Notes under the pieces: model-generated
What the model saw: only the letters and a program-made list of their open reading frames with translations
Database searches by the model: none
Told to the model about the DNA's origin: nothing
Made by a program: the position numbers and the translations under genes
In this document: positions 1,907 to 10,600 of the stretch, one piece after another
Layout of the letters: each line of letters opens with the position of its first letter
Position numbering within the stretch: the first letter of the stretch is position 1
Assembly (NCBI RefSeq): GCF_029265695.1
Contig: NZ_JAJUHW010000021.1
Coordinates: 1 to 46,403, forward strand
Reading direction: 5' to 3'
Length of the DNA stretch: 46,403 nucleotides
Source: Gracilinema caldarium
GTDB taxonomy: Bacteria; Spirochaetota; Spirochaetia; Treponematales; Breznakiellaceae

Positions 1907-2122
1907 CTATCCTGCGATAATGGCGAAGGCCTTGTCTTTTTCGCCGGGGAGCACGTTCTTGGGCATTTTATCCGTGCCAAGACTGGAGGCGATCATATAA
2001 AGGGCACAATGGAGGTTGTTGCCGCGGCAGTAGCTATTTTTAACTTCCTCCGCGTTGGAACCCATGTTTTCGCTCTGGTTGTTGTAAAAAGGACACTGGC
2101 TTGCAAATTCGCATTCTGTCAT
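1907..2122 (-). CDS. Small Cys-containing protein, function unknown
   Basis: A 71-residue soluble protein that I cannot assign to a named family. It carries four cysteines as C-x5-C near the N-terminus (residues 4 and 10) and C-x6-C in the middle (residues 32 and 39), a pattern that could bind a metal or an Fe-S cluster. There is no signal peptide or membrane segment. AAGGA lies about eight bases before the ATG, which supports translation. It is encoded opposite to, and between, the ECF transporter and the thiamine-binding protein gene, and is divergent from the latter. Its frame has no competing reading frame, so I regard it as a real gene. Confidence 0.7.
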   Translation of the reverse strand: MTECEFASQCPFYNNQSENMGSNAEEVKNSYCRGNNLHCALYMIASSLGTDKMPKNVLPGEKDKAFAIIAG

Positions 2123-2206
2123 GATTTTAATCCTTAGCTTATCTATTGCAGTGATGATATTTTTGTCTGGCTCCGCAGGGACCAGAACTTATATGAAGGA
2201 GTGTAT

Positions 2207-2521
2207 ATGAAAATTGATGTTGATGCTATCCCCTCGGCCATGGCCATTCAGTGTCTTCCCATGGGGCTGGCAACGAAAACTGAAACCTATGCGGTAGTGG
2301 ATAGTGTGATTAAACTTATCGAAGAATCGGGGCTCTCCTATGAGGTAGGCCCCTTCGAAACCGTGGTAGAAGGCCCCCTCCCCCGTTTGCTTGAGCTGGC
2401 AGGCCAGATGCACCGCCGCATGCTGGAAGCGGGAATTGGCACCGCAGCAAGCTACATCAAACTGTGGAGCGGCACAGACCTGGGAAGCAGCGAAGAAAAG
2501 GTCGGTAAATACCGGAAATAA
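2207..2521 (+). CDS. Thiamine-binding protein, MTH1187/YkoF family (DUF77)
   Basis: A 104-residue soluble protein of the Thiamine_BP (MTH1187/YkoF) family, a ferredoxin-like fold that binds thiamine or hydroxymethylpyrimidine. Family hallmarks are the N-terminal strand with IQCLPMG, the helix VVDSVIKLIEESGLSYEVGP, and TVVEGPLPRLLELAGQMHRRMLEAG. Single-domain members are about 100 residues, as here. ATG 2207 is preferred over GTG 2201 because the ribosome-binding site AAGGAG covers 2196-2201. In Bacillus the tandem-domain homologue YkoF is encoded with the ECF transporter YkoEDC; here the same partners (ATPase fusion and EcfT) lie just upstream, separated by one small opposite-strand gene. Confidence 0.85.
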   Translation: MKIDVDAIPSAMAIQCLPMGLATKTETYAVVDSVIKLIEESGLSYEVGPFETVVEGPLPRLLELAGQMHRRMLEAGIGTAASYIKLWSGTDLGSSEEKVGKYRK

Positions 2522-2525
2522 AAAA

Positions 2526-2560
2526 GCCTGGGGCTGCAGGTAATCTTGCAAGCCCCAGGC
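2526..2560 (-). terminator. Rho-independent terminator of the small exported protein gene
   Basis: A perfect 10-bp stem (2526-2535 with 2551-2560) is followed on the minus strand by six T residues (A run at 2520-2525). The T run overlaps the stop codon of the convergent thiamine-binding protein gene. On the plus strand there is no T run directly after the stem, so it mainly serves the minus-strand gene. Confidence 0.85.
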
Positions 2561-2582
2561 CATCTCAACATTTTAGCTTCGC

Positions 2583-3035
2583 TTACCAGCGGCCGCCACG
2601 ACCGCCGCGGCCACCAAAGTTACCGTTTGGACCCACATTACCCGCAGGCCCCATCATGCCCATACCGCGACCAAAGCTGTTGGAAAGATCGTAATCCTTG
2701 CCATTAAAGGTCAGCTTGGTTACCCGCAGGTGCTGGTATTCGGGAGCTCCCGGTAAGGCAATCGCATAGCCTTCCAGTTTTACTGAAGCACCTTCTTTAA
2801 GCCCGTCGATAAACCCGATGAGCCGGTTAAGGCCGCCTACGTAGTAGGTTTTTCCGCCACTCTGAACAGCGATCATACCGTTCACCAGGGCAAGCTTACC
2901 GTCCACTTTAACGGTCTGAAGATTCTGGGTCTGCACTGCGGCAGCGCCAGGGCCAAAACCAGGTCCTACAGCCTGGGCAGCAAGGGAACCGGCAGCGATG
3001 AGGCCGGCAGCGACGATAATCAGAATGCGTTTCAT
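2583..3035 (-). CDS. Small exported protein with Gly/Arg-rich tail, function unknown
   Basis: A 150-residue protein with a clear signal peptide (MKRILIIVAAGLIAAGSLAAQA; predicted cleavage near residue 21). The mature part starts with a Gly/Pro-rich stretch, then has a compact beta-rich segment (about residues 38-115, with VKVDGKLALVNGMIAV and VKLEGYAIALPG). It ends in a low-complexity Gly/Asn/Arg tail finishing GGRGGRGGRW. I do not recognise a named domain; the middle could be an OB-fold. The ribosome-binding site AAGGAG is well placed. An unusual feature is the near-consensus sigma-54 promoter about 105 bases upstream, with a hairpin in the leader. The gene ends in a strong terminator, so it is probably transcribed alone. 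Confidence 0.8.
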   Translation of the reverse strand: MKRILIIVAAGLIAAGSLAAQAVGPGFGPGAAAVQTQNLQTVKVDGKLALVNGMIAVQSGGKTYYVGGLNRLIGFIDGLKEGASVKLEGYAIALPGAPEYQHLRVTKLTFNGKDYDLSNSFGRGMGMMGPAGNVGPNGNFGGRGGRGGRW

Positions 3036-3111
3036 AGCATACTCCTTATGCTCGTTAGTTTGGAGTGCTTAATGCAACTCCGCGATAATTTCGTATCGGC
3101 TTATTACCGAT

Positions 3112-3132
3112 GTGCCAGCCAACGGCTGACAC
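3112..3132 (-). other. Hairpin in the leader of the sigma-54-type gene
   Basis: GTGCCAGCC (3112-3120) and GGCTGACAC (3124-3132) form a 9-bp stem with one mismatch and a three-base loop. It sits just at the predicted transcription start of the small exported protein gene, so it could be the 5' stem of its mRNA. Function is inferred only from position. Confidence 0.45.
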
Positions 3133-3140
3133 TTAATATA

Positions 3141-3158
3141 TTGCAGATTCCGTGCCAA
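3141..3158 (-). promoter_or_regulatory. Sigma-54 (RpoN) -24/-12 promoter
   Basis: Read on the minus strand the sequence is TTGGCACGGAATCTGCAA. Against the consensus YTGGCACG-N4-TTGCW it has one mismatch, and the invariant GG and GC are exactly ten bases apart. It would start transcription near 3131, giving a leader of about 95 bases for the exported protein gene starting at 3035. No sigma-70 -35/-10 pair with normal spacing competes here. The rest of the 338-base gap 3036-3373 is AT-rich; apart from the leader hairpin and the ribosome-binding site of the next gene I see nothing definite in it. Confidence 0.75.
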
Positions 3159-3373
3159 GTTATAATTTTATTATTTATTTTTTGTGACAATCGCATATTT
3201 TAATTATTTCTTTATAATATTTATATTTAGTAAAGCAATTTTACTTAATTATTAGCGAGGAGAATTGTAAGTATGAAAGGAAGCGATATGATGGGCAATT
3301 ATTTCGCATCATAGCAGGAAAGGCTAGAAAAATTTTCACAAAGCTGTGGTACAATACAAAAAGGAGGAAGGCC

Positions 3374-5617
3374 ATGAATCTGGATCCACAGATTGAACAG
3401 AATATAAATAAGGTGTTTGCGGGAGCTCTTGCTGCAGGCCGGCGTACCCTCTACGAATATGAGGTCTACGAAATTCTAAAGGCCTTAGGGCTCCAGGTAC
3501 CCCGATATCTTCATATCACCGATCCAATTACCTTGACCGAGGACCAGCTTGGTCCCTTCTTGCCCCGAGCGGTACTGAAGATTGTATCCCCTGACATTGC
3601 CCATAAATCCAAGCTGGGGGGCGTAAAAATCATCGATGTGGAAGATCCCCTCTATGTACGCTTTGTAATGGAAGTAATGCATACAGAGGTACTTTCCCAC
3701 TTTTCTGAAACAGAAAAACCGCGTATAGAAGGCTTCCTTCTTGCAGAACTCATTCCATTTTCGCAAGCCTTAGGAAACGAAGTTCTTATTGGAGTAAAAG
3801 AAGATATTGCCTTTGGACCCACCGTAACATTGACCAAGGGTGGAGATGATGCGGAATTTTTTGCTAAATACTACGATCCGCCGAATCTTGCCCTGGCCCC
3901 CCTTTCCAAAGATGAAGCATACGCTATCACCCATAACTTAAAAATACGCCACAAGTTTTCGCCGGAAATTCAGGCATCTTACTGCAACAAAATGGGAGAT
4001 GCCCTCTATGCTATTTCTCAGCTCGCTTACGAGTACTCATTTAGCCGGGAACCTAAGCCAGCGTTTCACCTATTACAGATGGATGTAAACCCCTTTGTGT
4101 TTTCTAAAACCACAGGCCACCCCTTCGTAGCCGTCGATGGCTTTGCCCAATTCATGCCCTCCGAAGAACGGAATATATCCACCACATGGAAGAAGCGGGA
4201 TTCGCTTAAGGCCTTTTTTGAACCTTCAGGCATTGCCGTTGCCGGGGTTTCCTCCGATGCAACCAAATACAACATGGCCCGAATTATTGTGGGGCTCTTA
4301 ACCGAACTTGGCCGCGAAGATGTGTATTGCCTTAACCCTAAAGGGGGCAGCACCGAAATAGCAGGGAAAACCTTTCCCCTCTATCCGACCATCCAAGATA
4401 TTCCGGTCAAATGTTCCCTCTATGTTTTTGCTGCCCCTGCCCAGCGGACCGTAGAATTCCTGGAAACCGTTCCGGACGGTTCAGCGGTTATCTTGATTTC
4501 GGGCATTCCATCGGAAATACATTTCACCGATTTTGCCGCCATTGTAGCCCAGCACAGCCAGCGGGGACTCCGTATTATCGGCCCAAACTGCATGGGGGTA
4601 TTCTTTGCGCCAGACAAAAACCGTAAGGGGGTAAATACCCTTTTTCTGGGGGATGAACGGCTCCCCATCCGCTGGACCGAACACTCCAATGTGGCCCTCT
4701 TTACCCAGTCGGGGGCCATGGGTATTACAGCGGTTGAACGGGCTCCCTATTGGCCCATTTACCGTACTATTGTTTCCTTTGGCAATAAGGTTGATGTAAA
4801 TGTACCGGACCTCGTGGGCTATTTCTGCGAGGAACCCCGCATTTCAGTCATGGCCATGTACCTGGAGGGCCTTGGCCCCGGCGAAGGCAGGGCTTTTTTT
4901 GAAGCCGCCAAAAACAGCTCCAAACCCCTCATTGTGTATAAGGCAGGCAGGACCGAAGCCGGGGCCAAGGCCGCGGCAAGCCACACCGCAAGCATGTCCG
5001 GCGATTACGAGATTTTCCAGGCCGCATGTTCCCAGGCGGGCATTATTCTTATTGATGAGCTGCCCGATTTTTATAACGCCGTTAAAGCCTTTTCTATGCT
5101 TGATTCACATCGGCCCCAAGGCCTACGGGTAGGCGGCGTCGTTAATGCCGGCCTAGATGCCACCATGGGTGCGGATCTTCTTGGGAATCTAAAACCTGCG
5201 GTTTATACAACCGAAACAAACCAGACCCTGCAAAAGCTTAATATACATGGACTCCTTAATGTGGGAGCCTCATTCCTCGATGTTACGCCAATGACGGATG
5301 ACAGGCTTTTTGCGGATATCGTGGATGCCATGCTTTCGGATCCCCAGGTAGATTGTGCTTTTGTGGCTATTGTACCCCATGTGGAAACCTTGAAGACCAC
5401 GGAAGAGCTGTGCAGAGAAGCGGATGCGCTCGGCCCGCTCCTGGTAAAGACCGCAGTAAAGCACAAAAAACCTCTTGTCATTTCCGTTAATGCAGGCTCT
5501 CGCTACCAAGGTCTTGTCCAGGTGCTGGAAGAAGGGGGCATCCCGGTCTATCCGGACATTCGGTCAGCCATGCGCGCCCTGGATACCTTCTGCAGCTATT
5601 GGGCCCGAAATAAATAA
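3374..5617 (+). CDS. ADP-forming acyl-CoA (acetyl-CoA) synthetase-like protein, ATP-grasp first
   Basis: A 747-residue cytoplasmic enzyme of the NDP-forming acyl-CoA synthetase superfamily, which interconverts acyl-CoA + ADP + Pi with acid + CoA + ATP. The N-terminal ATP-grasp domain (about 5-245) opens with the helix YEVYEILKALGLQVP and contains VGVKED-like strand IGVKEDIAFGP. The CoA-binding Rossmann domain (about 270-370) and the succinyl-CoA-ligase-like domains (about 375-745) follow, with the nucleotide/phosphate loop FTQSGAMG and the catalytic motif AASHTASMSG, whose His537 would be phosphorylated. The order ATP-grasp then CoA-binding is the reverse of the usual archaeal single-chain enzyme, and there is no acetyltransferase domain. 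The start has AAGGAGG seven bases upstream. Substrate (acetate, propionate, branched acids) cannot be read from sequence. Confidence 0.85.
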   Translation: MNLDPQIEQNINKVFAGALAAGRRTLYEYEVYEILKALGLQVPRYLHITDPITLTEDQLGPFLPRAVLKIVSPDIAHKSKLGGVKIIDVEDPLYVRFVMEVMHTEVLSHFSETEKPRIEGFLLAELIPFSQALGNEVLIGVKEDIAFGPTVTLTKGGDDAEFFAKYYDPPNLALAPLSKDEAYAITHNLKIRHKFSPEIQASYCNKMGDALYAISQLAYEYSFSREPKPAFHLLQMDVNPFVFSKTTGHPFVAVDGFAQFMPSEERNISTTWKKRDSLKAFFEPSGIAVAGVSSDATKYNMARIIVGLLTELGREDVYCLNPKGGSTEIAGKTFPLYPTIQDIPVKCSLYVFAAPAQRTVEFLETVPDGSAVILISGIPSEIHFTDFAAIVAQHSQRGLRIIGPNCMGVFFAPDKNRKGVNTLFLGDERLPIRWTEHSNVALFTQSGAMGITAVERAPYWPIYRTIVSFGNKVDVNVPDLVGYFCEEPRISVMAMYLEGLGPGEGRAFFEAAKNSSKPLIVYKAGRTEAGAKAAASHTASMSGDYEIFQAACSQAGIILIDELPDFYNAVKAFSMLDSHRPQGLRVGGVVNAGLDATMGADLLGNLKPAVYTTETNQTLQKLNIHGLLNVGASFLDVTPMTDDRLFADIVDAMLSDPQVDCAFVAIVPHVETLKTTEELCREADALGPLLVKTAVKHKKPLVISVNAGSRYQGLVQVLEEGGIPVYPDIRSAMRALDTFCSYWARNK

Positions 5618-5703: not shown

Positions 5704-6423
5704 ATGAATCGAAAATTACTGATTGCATCGAGCCTGCTGCTCCTAATGGGTGGGATTCTGTTTGCTCAGGATCTCAAGATTGACTATCAGGTAAATGTAG
5801 CCGCCGATGATCCTGCTAACTACTTTACCTTTAGCGGCCCTATTCGGTATATGGCTGCTGAAAAAGACACTCTGGACGCTACCACTGGCGCTTCCAAGCT
5901 TGGTTCAACCCATATTTTCATGCCCTACCTGTATGATGTAAAGGGTAAAGCAGTATTACCCACCGGCTTACGGGGCCTGTTCCTCTTTGCGGTAGCTCCC
6001 AAGGATCAGCGGGTTCTGGATAATCTCACGGTGAGCAAGGCAGCCGACGGGGTTATTACTATCCAGTATGTACACCGCGGAACGGCATATAAACTGGTAA
6101 CCGATAAAAATGGAAAATTCACCTTCCCGAAAGGGGATTTCGTACGCAGGGCTATCGGATTCATTCAGGGGGCTAACCCCCAGGTAATCCACACAGATTT
6201 CTCTGCCGACAGCACCGCAGCAAAGGTTAACTGGGCAAAAGTGTGGGATGCAAAGATTCCCGGCGGTAAGGAAATAAAGGCAGGCGTTGCAAATAAGACC
6301 GGAGACATTACTGATGATAACGGCGTTGCCGATGCCATGTACAGCTGGAACGGAGAGCTGCAGGTTACGTTTGATAAAAACATCCTCAAAATTGCCGGTG
6401 GTCTCACTGCAGTGAAACGCTAA
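5704..6423 (+). CDS. Exported protein, function unknown
   Basis: A 239-residue protein with a signal peptide (MNRKLLIASSLLLLMGGILFAQ, cleavage after about residue 22) and no further membrane segment. The mature part is beta-rich and alternates hydrophobic and polar residues, as in periplasmic beta-sandwich proteins. One segment (DGVITIQYVHRGTAYKLV) looks like paired strands. I do not recognise the family. AGGAGG lies six bases before the ATG. A strong plus-strand terminator follows directly, so the transcript ends here; it may be single or be read through from the acyl-CoA synthetase gene 86 bases upstream. Confidence 0.75.
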   Translation: MNRKLLIASSLLLLMGGILFAQDLKIDYQVNVAADDPANYFTFSGPIRYMAAEKDTLDATTGASKLGSTHIFMPYLYDVKGKAVLPTGLRGLFLFAVAPKDQRVLDNLTVSKAADGVITIQYVHRGTAYKLVTDKNGKFTFPKGDFVRRAIGFIQGANPQVIHTDFSADSTAAKVNWAKVWDAKIPGGKEIKAGVANKTGDITDDNGVADAMYSWNGELQVTFDKNILKIAGGLTAVKR

Positions 6424-6456
6424 GCATTAGGTTAATTAGCTCTTCGTACTTAATGA

Positions 6457-6499
6457 GGGGGGAATGTCCTAAACTTATTGGGCATCCCCCCTTTTTTTT
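6457..6499 (+). terminator. Rho-independent terminator after the exported protein gene
   Basis: A run of six G plus ATG-CC (6457-6469) pairs with GGGCAT plus six C (6480-6491), with one bulge and one G-U pair, and is followed by eight T (6492-6499). The T run overlaps the stop codon of the convergent FecR/propeller gene. There is no T run on the minus side. Confidence 0.9.
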
Positions 6500-8588
6500 A
6501 TAGTTTATCAGTATCGATCCGTAAGAGCTTTCCGTTTGCCGTTCCAATATAAATGTTTCCATCTACCAAGATGGGACGGGCGCTTGCTACTTCAGGCAGG
6601 GGACTCCGTTTCAGTATGACCCCACTTGCTGCATCGGCTATAACGAGGCTTGGACCACTCGAACTCCAGTATAGCTTACCCTTTGATAAAAGCGGCGGTG
6701 ATTCTACATGGGGAATCGTGGTCCCGACAATCGCTCCGTCAACAAGTGAAATGCTCCTCAGGGTCTTATCCTGAAGCCAGACATAAAGCTTCCCCCCATC
6801 TAATTCCGGATCAGAGCGGATAGATTGATCGAGCTTTATATCCCAGAGTATACGGTAATTTACCGTATCTATTGCAATTACCCTTCCATTTTTGGCAGCG
6901 ATATATACACGGCCATCTTTAACGCGGGGACTTAAAACGTCCGCAGATAGGTTGATAGCTATTTCATCAAGGATACGGGCATTTTTAAGATCAATAAAGA
7001 CAGCTTTACCTTGTCCGCTTACCGCAACCAGATGGGGATCTGCAAGCACAAGGGGAGCAATTACCCCGCCAAGCACAGGAATTTCAGCTATTACCTCAGC
7101 ATTTTCTTGTCTCAGGATGGTCACTCCCCGAGGAGTAGCCAAGGCTAGACCATTCGGAACTGGTACCGGCTTTGCCTGCGGAAGTCCTTGCCAAGAGTCA
7201 AATGGATAAAAACCCCGTTCTCTGCCTGAATTGGCATCGAGTATCGTCAGTTTTTGTTGTTCGACCACCGCAACCGTTGTATCGAGGGCTGTAAAAGAAA
7301 CAACAGTTTGGCGCTCATACAATTTTTTACCCTGCTGATCTACAGCATATAGGTTACCCTTGGAATCCATGAGAAGAACAACCTCGCTGGTTCGGCTCAA
7401 CATACCAGCAAAAGCGGTAGACGCTAAAGGTACTGAATAAACAAGGCCTTGATAGTTCGGAGTAACGTTTACCTTTTTTGAATCACGAGCGGCATTAGGC
7501 TGAGGAACAAAGTATCGTTCTGGAAGAGCAGCAGGTAGTGCGGCGCTGTCCTTTCCTGGATCCCGCATCCTGTCAAGAATTTCAAGCAACGTTCGAGAAT
7601 ACTCAGAAATTAAAAGCGCCGGCATCATACGATTGAGCTTTGCAAAGGGCCGTTCCGCTTCTGAATCGGGTCCTGCCAGCACCGCCACAGGGTCTCGAAC
7701 TGCTTCAAAGTCGGTCCCCCGGGCTTGCAATTCCTCGGCCTGATGAACGAGAGAACCATAAGCGGATTCTGCGCTGTTAAGCAATAATTCGTATTCTCCT
7801 GTACCAAGGGTAGAATCTTGACCGCCTATAGAGATCTCCTGACCTGGGCCGGCCTTTGGAGCGAGCGTAAAAGCCGTCGCAACTACCGCCCCGGCAAGCG
7901 GATTTGCCTGGCGTCCATCAATCAAGCTGGTAAATAATTTGCCTTTAGGAAGGACCGCAACACTTCCTTCCCGGACAGCGACCAGGGTCCGCTCAGTTCG
8001 TGCAAGTTTCTCATAGCCCACGATAAATTGGGTACCCCGAACCCCCGCAGCAGAGTTGGGGGTTAACACGAGGAATTCATCCTTGGAAGAAAGTTTTTTA
8101 ACCTTGGCAGCCACTGTTCCCGCAAGAAGGGAAAGGTCAACCGTATCATGGTCAGCCTGTTGCATCGCTCGGGATATGATCATCGTTAGGTTGACTGTGG
8201 TGTTCGGAAAAAGCCGAATAGTCGCAAACGATCCATAAGCGATCTCGGCAGAACCATCCTTGCCAGTACTGATTGTATCACCGGCCATGAGTTCCAGACC
8301 TTCAGAGGCCGTCAGGGATTGGGAACCGCGCGAAATACTGACTGAGCCTTGTATAAATACTAAAACTGGCTGTATAGACTCTGGTTTAGCATTCGAGTCA
8401 GCTGCGGCTACATCGCCAGTAGTACTATCCTGTGCGGTGATATCGCTAGAGGCGATAAGACTCGAAAAATCTTGACTGGGTTTTTGTGATAATTTTTCAT
8501 CGTTTTTTCCAGCACTGCAGCTCGTGACTCCCAAAAGGGCAAAGAACAAGAGGAGCATTGTAACATAAGGTTGTGCAAATCTGTTCAT
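6498..8588 (-). CDS. FecR-domain / PQQ-type beta-propeller lipoprotein
   Basis: A 696-residue predicted lipoprotein: hydrophobic N-terminus with lipobox VTSC (Cys24). A low-complexity Ser/Asp/Ala spacer is followed by a FecR-type beta domain (about 70-215; GDTISTGKDGSAEIAYGSFATIRL and TPNSAAGVRGTQFIV are typical). A helical linker and a C-terminal beta-propeller (about 380-690) with PQQ/WD-like repeats follow, such as KDGRVYIAAKNGRVIAIDT and LVDGNIYIGTANGKLLRIDT. This resembles a BamB-like scaffold joined to a FecR module, outside the usual FecI/FecR/TonB setting. It is divergent from an HtrA-type protease gene. A -10-like TATACT (8613-8618, minus) lies upstream; the ATG has no good ribosome-binding site, and Met11 is an alternative start that keeps the lipobox. 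Confidence 0.85.
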   Translation of the reverse strand: MNRFAQPYVTMLLLFFALLGVTSCSAGKNDEKLSQKPSQDFSSLIASSDITAQDSTTGDVAAADSNAKPESIQPVLVFIQGSVSISRGSQSLTASEGLELMAGDTISTGKDGSAEIAYGSFATIRLFPNTTVNLTMIISRAMQQADHDTVDLSLLAGTVAAKVKKLSSKDEFLVLTPNSAAGVRGTQFIVGYEKLARTERTLVAVREGSVAVLPKGKLFTSLIDGRQANPLAGAVVATAFTLAPKAGPGQEISIGGQDSTLGTGEYELLLNSAESAYGSLVHQAEELQARGTDFEAVRDPVAVLAGPDSEAERPFAKLNRMMPALLISEYSRTLLEILDRMRDPGKDSAALPAALPERYFVPQPNAARDSKKVNVTPNYQGLVYSVPLASTAFAGMLSRTSEVVLLMDSKGNLYAVDQQGKKLYERQTVVSFTALDTTVAVVEQQKLTILDANSGRERGFYPFDSWQGLPQAKPVPVPNGLALATPRGVTILRQENAEVIAEIPVLGGVIAPLVLADPHLVAVSGQGKAVFIDLKNARILDEIAINLSADVLSPRVKDGRVYIAAKNGRVIAIDTVNYRILWDIKLDQSIRSDPELDGGKLYVWLQDKTLRSISLVDGAIVGTTIPHVESPPLLSKGKLYWSSSGPSLVIADAASGVILKRSPLPEVASARPILVDGNIYIGTANGKLLRIDTDKL

Positions 8589-9973: not shown

Positions 9974-10600
9974 TTAAAGATTCTCTTGAGCCAGGACAGC
10001 TTCCACTGCTGCCCTGGCAGAGCCGCTTAAACCCCGAATAACTCGGATGCCAAAGGATGAAAGCTGCCGTATGGCTCCTTCGCCGATGTTTTGAGCGATA
10101 AGCACTTCTACTTTTTTCTTTGCTAGTTCACTGGCCACACCGCTTTTGCAGCCCCCAAGTCCTGGTAGGGCAAAAGATTGCTCAGCGGTAATGTTGAGAC
10201 CTTCCACCGTATATATGGCAAACAATTCACAATGGCCAAAATGGGGGAAAATAAACCCCGAAGCATCGGTGGGAACCGCTATTATCATGTTTTGTCCATC
10301 CTCATTCTGCAATATCGTATTTCCACCGCCAACACGCAATACTTTTCCATTCACCAGGGCATCAGCTACTTTTTTACGGGCGCTCTCAATAATACGGCCA
10401 AAGGTTTGGCGAGAAATACCCATCCGAAGTGCCGCTGCCTCCTGATAAAGACCTTCATAATCTGCAAGCCGCAGAGCTTCAAATTCGTCCAAGGATAGAA
10501 CCACGTCAGACAGGGCTTGCAGGGGACAGGCGGCGGCGGGATGGAAAATGTCATAGGCCGGCACGGTCTGAATACGGCGATCTCTTATCGGTCGGGGCAT
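9974..10600 (-). CDS. DUF134 helix-turn-helix protein fused to a NifX/MTH1175-like Fe-Mo cofactor domain
   Basis: A 208-residue two-domain protein. Residues 1-95 are a DUF134-type DNA-binding module: MPRPIRDRRIQ start, then LSLDEFEALRLADYEGLYQEAAALRMGISRQTFGRII, a sigma-region-4-like helix-turn-helix. Residues 105-208 are a dinitrogenase-iron-molybdenum-cofactor-binding domain (NifX/NifB-C-terminal type): FPHFGHCELFAIY, GLGGCKSGVASELAKKKVEVLIAQNIGEGA. Such fusions are known in anaerobes but no nitrogenase gene is in the window, so a metal- or redox-sensing regulator is more likely than nitrogenase assembly. Its ATG lies 16 bases inside the end of kbl, so the two are translationally coupled. 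Confidence 0.85.
   Translation of the reverse strand: MPRPIRDRRIQTVPAYDIFHPAAACPLQALSDVVLSLDEFEALRLADYEGLYQEAAALRMGISRQTFGRIIESARKKVADALVNGKVLRVGGGNTILQNEDGQNMIIAVPTDASGFIFPHFGHCELFAIYTVEGLNITAEQSFALPGLGGCKSGVASELAKKKVEVLIAQNIGEGAIRQLSSFGIRVIRGLSGSARAAVEAVLAQENL

Follow-up and report, generated by a model that had tools for sequence, protein, structure and literature searches.

The minus-strand gene at 2583–3035 of the window (the whole stretch of DNA analysed, 46,403 nucleotides) is probably a single-gene sigma-54 unit, in which an activator bound to paired palindromes would act by DNA looping on the promoter of an mRNA with a 5' hairpin, encoding a small exported OB-fold protein. On balance, and with less assurance, a broader reading is also favoured. 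In the order as a whole, sigma-54 mRNAs would often carry a 5'-terminal hairpin and be protected from birth, and, as a separate matter, one undescribed activator recognising GGGNAAAWTTTNCCC would run an envelope/redox regulon that includes the OB-fold protein.

The -24/-12 element TTGGCACGGAATCTGCAA lies at 3141–3158 on the minus strand, with GG and GC ten bases apart as originally read. Its single mismatch, C in place of the first T of TTGC, is to the sigma-54 consensus, TTGGCACG-N4-TTGCA. The assignment draws on the sequence, on a genome count and on conservation in the family. The pattern of the sigma-54 class, TTGGCAYNNNNNNTGCW, occurs at 25 places in the 3.04 Mb draft genome of which the window is contig C36, and at none when reversed. 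The original prediction depended on rpoN, which is present in the genome (E 4.7e-55), as are nine strong AAA+ sigma-54 activators. The genes behind strict sites, named by reading, include those for AmtB, glutamine synthetase III, Hsp20, RpoS-like and RpoD-like sigma factors, a peroxiredoxin and a TusA-like protein. With rpoN, the nine activators and these genes, the genome is one with a working sigma-54 regulon as judged by its sequence. Since rpoN is found in nearly all relatives (37 out of 39), its co-occurrence with the family is uninformative.

The nearest named relatives of the genome are Treponema-labelled spirochaetes; the best matches of the protein family include the MAG M74 (96%) and Breznakiella homolactica (67%). 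The family is present at 33 loci of named genomes, in 32 of the 39 relatives and, by profile search, in 139 of 291 genomes of the order. Collapsing 169 rows gave 150 distinct upstream regions. Part of the listed profile matches had supplied 120 regions to this collection, with some replacing earlier loci. ORF starts were picked by a rule devised for the present analysis; 10 of 63 loci gave no ORF by this motif/start rule, and of these, eight genomes were taken up again while L031 and L061 were left out. A site was scored over 12 positions with GG and GC fixed. At least 10 positions agree in 94 of the 150 regions and at least 11 in 79, compared with 26 and 16 of 1706 random 250-nt windows from related loci. 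The same protein family stands behind such sites in relatives, and the GG-N10-GC pattern, whose loss in close relatives would have spoken against the promoter, persists throughout the genus, in each of its four genomes (L035, L002, L003 and L038). The remaining 56 regions have no sigma-54 site: part of the family has lost the promoter or never gained it, and this holds even where rpoN is retained.

A motif search upstream of the 94 promoters, using seeds hand-picked from enriched words, gave one palindrome, GGGNAAAWTTTNCCC, for which the threshold was set at a score of 10. In two-fold cross-validation it was present at 34/47 and 29/47 promoters, with 3.2% and 2.1% in shuffles and 3/53 and 2/53 in family members without a site; because the two halves were drawn at random and all 94 promoters supplied seeds, the combined 63/94 is somewhat inflated by relatedness and seed choice. 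With a matrix trained on this same set, a palindrome of this type is within 320 nt upstream in 83/94, and in 56 of these 83 it has a second copy (score at least 7, within 45 nt), compared with 0.7% of shuffled flanks. Random 200-nt windows contain it in 10 of 532 cases. Its distance from the sigma-54 site is about 65–300 nt. The copies are 19–22 bp apart in 31 cases, 30–33 bp in 14, 40–42 bp in four and at other spacings in seven, that is, two, three or four helical turns apart in 49 of the 56 pairs, as a cooperative activator on one face of the DNA needs.

In the window, the proximal copy GCGAAATAATTGCCC (3293–3307, minus strand, score 13.2), identified by the motif search and its pairing, is about 150 nt upstream of the sigma-54 site within ATGATG...CATCAT (3288–3312). 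The distal copy GTGAAAATTTTTCTA (3325–3339, minus strand, score 10.4) is 32 bp from it. By its sequence the palindrome pair is a tandem enhancer, newly recognised here, and it provides as a sequence feature the upstream enhancer that characterises sigma-54-dependent promoters. The requirement for an activator, assumed at the outset, gains support from the co-occurrence of the paired palindrome with the sigma-54 site and its near absence where there is no site. No palindrome scoring at least 10 was present within 320 nt in 11 of the 94 sigma-54-driven copies, nor was one present within 400 nt in B. homolactica (L006). The strict palindrome GGGNAAANTTTNCCC was tried as a genome-wide probe; it found few places, many of them G/C-centred with no sigma-54 site nearby, and is therefore too strict.

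Sigma-54 promoters of genes outside the family were collected from the same genome and its relatives (73 rows, 71 distinct sites), and 13 of these have the palindrome (score at least 10, within 230 nt). Eight form a set consisting of DUF2202-type proteins (L325 and L126), small SHOCT or SHOCT-like membrane proteins (L132, L326 and L330), a 4Fe-4S membrane protein (L315 and L288) and an ABC-transporter operon with FtsX and LolA-like genes (L322). L326, L330, L325 and L288 are named by resemblance; Pfam supports SHOCT and, in the copies tested, also DUF2202, Fer4_5, FtsX and LolA_like. The remaining five fall outside this set; they are two Hsp20 genes, a glutamine synthetase, a chemoreceptor-like protein and NifH, whose palindrome lies only 27 nt upstream. 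At locus L345 two divergent sigma-54 sites flank a pair of palindromes, with a DUF2202-type gene (shared motif, no Pfam match) and a rhodanese gene on one side and a 4Fe-4S gene on the other. In the genome under study, SHOCT and 4Fe-4S genes are co-directional behind two palindromes 42 bp apart. The nature of the co-marked genes (DUF2202/rubrerythrin-like, SHOCT, 4Fe-4S and FtsX/LolA-like) points to a redox, metal or envelope-damage response as the role of the regulon. A search for the GAFTGA motif beside the shared-enhancer loci found no activator gene, in a test that caught five of nine known activators.

Transcription from sigma-54 promoters starts at an established spacing from the -12 GC, at about index 26 when the T of TGGCAC is index 0. 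From this spacing, and from the clustering of family hairpin starts at the same place, the transcription start is predicted at 3131–3132 on the minus strand, which makes the leader about 97 nt long. A hairpin had been claimed where the mRNA begins, and one is predicted at 3112–3132 (minus strand), GUGUCAGCC-GUU-GGCUGGCAC, with nine pairs and a GUU loop, on the evidence of folding and of covariation in the class of leaders with a CGTTG centre. The leader as a whole folds at -36.3 kcal/mol (z -4.9), with a second hairpin at 3095–3111, and a ribosome-binding site, AAGGAG, is read at 3042–3047, both on the minus strand. An Rfam search over 2000–4000 gave sub-threshold matches only, none of them at the hairpin.

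Across the family, a stem of at least five pairs starting at index 22–33 is found in 58 of 79 long leaders, where dinucleotide shuffles lead one to expect 21.9. Strong stems start at index 24–27 in 31 of the 79 and at 28–31 in 27, while windows before index 24 have one to nine. A further 15 leaders, too short for the test, gave 0/15. Strong family hairpins have a second positional peak at index 44–47 (24 of 65 leaders). In the CGTTG class, 20 leaders chosen for that centre, double-change cells number 34 compared with 15.4 ± 3.0 in shuffles, the covariation score is 0.553 compared with 0.235 ± 0.035, and the pairing is destroyed when the partner is slid. The sigma-54 site plus CGTTG was also tried as a search pattern in relatives and discarded, having matched 13 places, several of them away from family genes.

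The hairpin seems to extend to other, unrelated sigma-54 transcripts of the order. Among 93 non-family sites in the 39 relatives, those then followed by GGAG, the leader has a strong stem in 31, with 7.4 expected; by genome family, this is 16 of 58 in the organism's own, 15 of 32 in three others and 0 of 3 in a fourth. There is no enrichment in another phylum (3 of 88, 4.5 expected). The pattern is thus enriched in the order and not in the other phylum, so it belongs to the order rather than to sigma-54 itself, and the 5' hairpin seems to be a recurring feature of the order's sigma-54 transcripts. In one genome of the other phylum (G328), three later, unscored rows show a stem by eye.

The 150-residue product was described originally as a secreted protein of no known family. 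This description holds, in that the ORF matches no Pfam family at E 0.001 and a signal peptide of about 22 residues (2970–3035, minus strand) is seen by eye. The family is specific to the lineage. NCBIfam gave two chance-level rows (E 0.19 and 0.24), a PDB sequence search found no relative, the weak family-library matches of 47 members included no metal-resistance family, and the Pfam BOF model was absent from the matches of the ORF and of those members. The 47-member alignment retains the core GxL...GFIDGLKEGA.V.LEG. AlphaFold2 models residues 41–120 confidently as a beta domain (pLDDT about 90) and the rest with low confidence. The conserved domain, residues 36–116 (2688–2930, minus strand), is a predicted OB-fold on the basis of this model and of structure comparison, in which the best matches are OB-folds (SSB, PriB, NigD-like, Potempin A and YgiW) with Z up to 6.9; the Foldseek E value is 0.003, and Z below 8 may reflect common fold alone, below the level of kinship. 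Residues 117–150 (2586–2687, minus strand) are a Gly/Arg/Met-rich tail, mostly of low model confidence. The product is therefore predicted to be a small exported OB-fold with a flexible tail. Over 80 tails the mean composition is 24% Gly, 15% Arg, 5.8% Met and 3.3% His; with Met and His at these levels, a metal-binding Met/His tail was considered suggestive only and not adopted.

The gene appears to end at an intrinsic terminator (2520–2561, minus strand), situated between it and a convergent thiamine-binding-protein gene. There is a terminator-like stem followed by six U (fold z -5.0), in agreement with the claim that the gene has its own terminator. A terminator consensus scan did not list this stem, probably because its loop and bulge exceed the limits of the scan. 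Synteny revealed no neighbour common beyond the genus, except that a few loci have a Lar_N gene upstream, and was dropped as a guide to function. The gene had been seen as a discrete unit, and it does stand alone; as a refinement, it is one member of a small enhancer-defined sub-regulon.

The proposed mechanism is as follows. One of the nine AAA+ activators would respond to a signal and bind the two GGGNAAAWTTTNCCC-type palindromes at 3293–3307 and 3325–3339, three helical turns apart. The bound activator would loop over about 150 nt to the RNA polymerase-sigma-54 complex at 3141–3158 and open it, with transcription starting near 3131. The first RNA bases would close at once into the hairpin, leaving no free 5' end, and decay that depends on the 5' end would most likely be slowed. 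By analogy, such protection is most likely the reason for the hairpin. The product would then be exported, probably to the periplasm.

It is very unlikely that an ordinary sigma-70 promoter drives the gene and that the -24/-12 match is chance or a relic. A sigma-70-like sequence, TTGTCA-17-AATTAT (9/12), is present at 3162–3190 on the minus strand, and the 56 family upstream regions without a sigma-54 site would suit this explanation. However, such matches are near chance in the surrounding kilobase (three, compared with 1.0 ± 0.9 in shuffles), and across several families of the order the sigma-54 site has been retained (94 of 150 regions) together with the palindrome pair at helical spacing. 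The palindrome might instead serve a regulator other than the sigma-54 activator, such as a Rex-like redox repressor, since some copies, such as GTGAAATAATTTCACG, resemble the Rex operator. This is unlikely given its co-occurrence with the sigma-54 site (63/94, compared with at most 3/53), its pairing at helical spacing some 65–300 nt upstream and, at L345, the placement of the palindromes between sigma-54 promoters that point away from each other.

The inverted repeat at the start could likewise be a DNA operator for a repressor rather than an RNA hairpin. The CGTTG centre is invariant in 20 out of 20, but that class was selected for its loop. A repressor site should retain the sequence of its arms, and here both arms change while the pairing is retained, orthologues have unrelated arm and loop sequences at the same position, and the hairpins that other sigma-54 genes have there are unrelated; an operator is therefore quite improbable. 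A role for the hairpin in translation control or attenuation, rather than in mRNA protection, is possible but not favoured. Further stems in the leader and the second family peak at index 44–47 are in keeping with it. Against it, the hairpin starts at the predicted +1 and is distant from the ribosome-binding site, across leaders differing in length and sequence, and no T run follows it in the window.

Under the preferred reading, an activator-dependent sigma-54 unit with a protected mRNA, parts of the system resemble known ones. In the NtrC-type tandem enhancer of glnA, two palindromes upstream of a -24/-12 promoter occupy one face of the helix; the paired palindromes here share this arrangement, with a different enhancer sequence, GGGNAAAWTTTNCCC. 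ZraP is a helical, zinc-binding protein, whereas the present product is predicted to be all-beta, has no Pfam family and has no activator gene adjacent. In logic rather than family, ZraR-ZraP of E. coli and Salmonella is the nearest documented parallel: there, a response regulator that activates sigma-54 transcription switches on a small protein of the periplasm, which is the probable location here too. According to sections of PMC7657598, ZraP is a chaperone activated by ZraR, and ZraR acts in envelope stress. The ompA-type stabiliser is a stem-loop placed right at the mRNA's 5' end (Emory et al. 1992, as cited in a section of PMC7509114). A 5'-terminal stem with few unpaired bases is present here too, as a predicted structure at a predicted start; unlike that of ompA, the hairpin recurs with unrelated sequences over an order's sigma-54 transcripts, and an effect on decay is proposed by analogy. 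YgiW/BOF (1nnx), NigD-like proteins and Potempin A are similar in being exported with an OB-fold, here predicted (Z 5.8–6.7), but there is no sequence match and Z below 8 may be fold alone.

No paper on sigma-54 leader hairpins or on the present family was found in the open-access literature. In the sections available of a sigma-54 regulon survey, Spirochaetia are named four times, with no mention of this family or of leader hairpins (PMC12316311). The D. vulgaris regulome has a predicted AT-rich palindromic activator site, and the letters GGG are absent from the main text of that paper (PMC4641369).

An unnamed ORF can thus be seen as part of a regulated unit: it has a specific enhancer, the start of its mRNA is predicted, and other genes are likely to be co-regulated with it. 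The lineage concerned includes most termite-gut spirochaetes, which a section of PMC13067680 places in Breznakiellaceae. The leader hairpins raise the general claim that the regulon of a sigma factor can share an RNA-stability device, and the enhancer motif offers a handle for finding the activator and its signal.

Several further observations were made. In several genomes of the order, sigma-70-family sigma factors, RpoS-like by reading, are found behind sigma-54 sites (L127, L299, L300, L301 and also L303, L306, L312, L336), recalling the RpoN-RpoS cascade of Borrelia. Hsp20-type proteins, also by reading, are repeatedly behind such sites (L117, L283, L291, L293, L295, L298, L308, L321, L324, L331, L334 and L335). 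A 98%-complete genome, G012, has no detectable rpoN and a weakened site before the family gene (L048, 10/12, GGTACG...GCG), with better sites before this gene in other genomes of its genus; this could be site decay after rpoN loss or an assembly gap. Family copies at four loci (L015, L024, L028 and L149) have no intact sigma-54 site and retain the CGTTG hairpin in the leader, L149 having a near-site in which GC is GT. A second family-like ORF of 261 aa, a tandem paralogue, is directly downstream at L021:5770-7139. In the window, 9974–10600 on the minus strand encodes, by eye, a fusion of DUF134 and a NifX-like protein, and in L345, near the shared-enhancer locus, 5854–6525 encodes a protein with a similar start.
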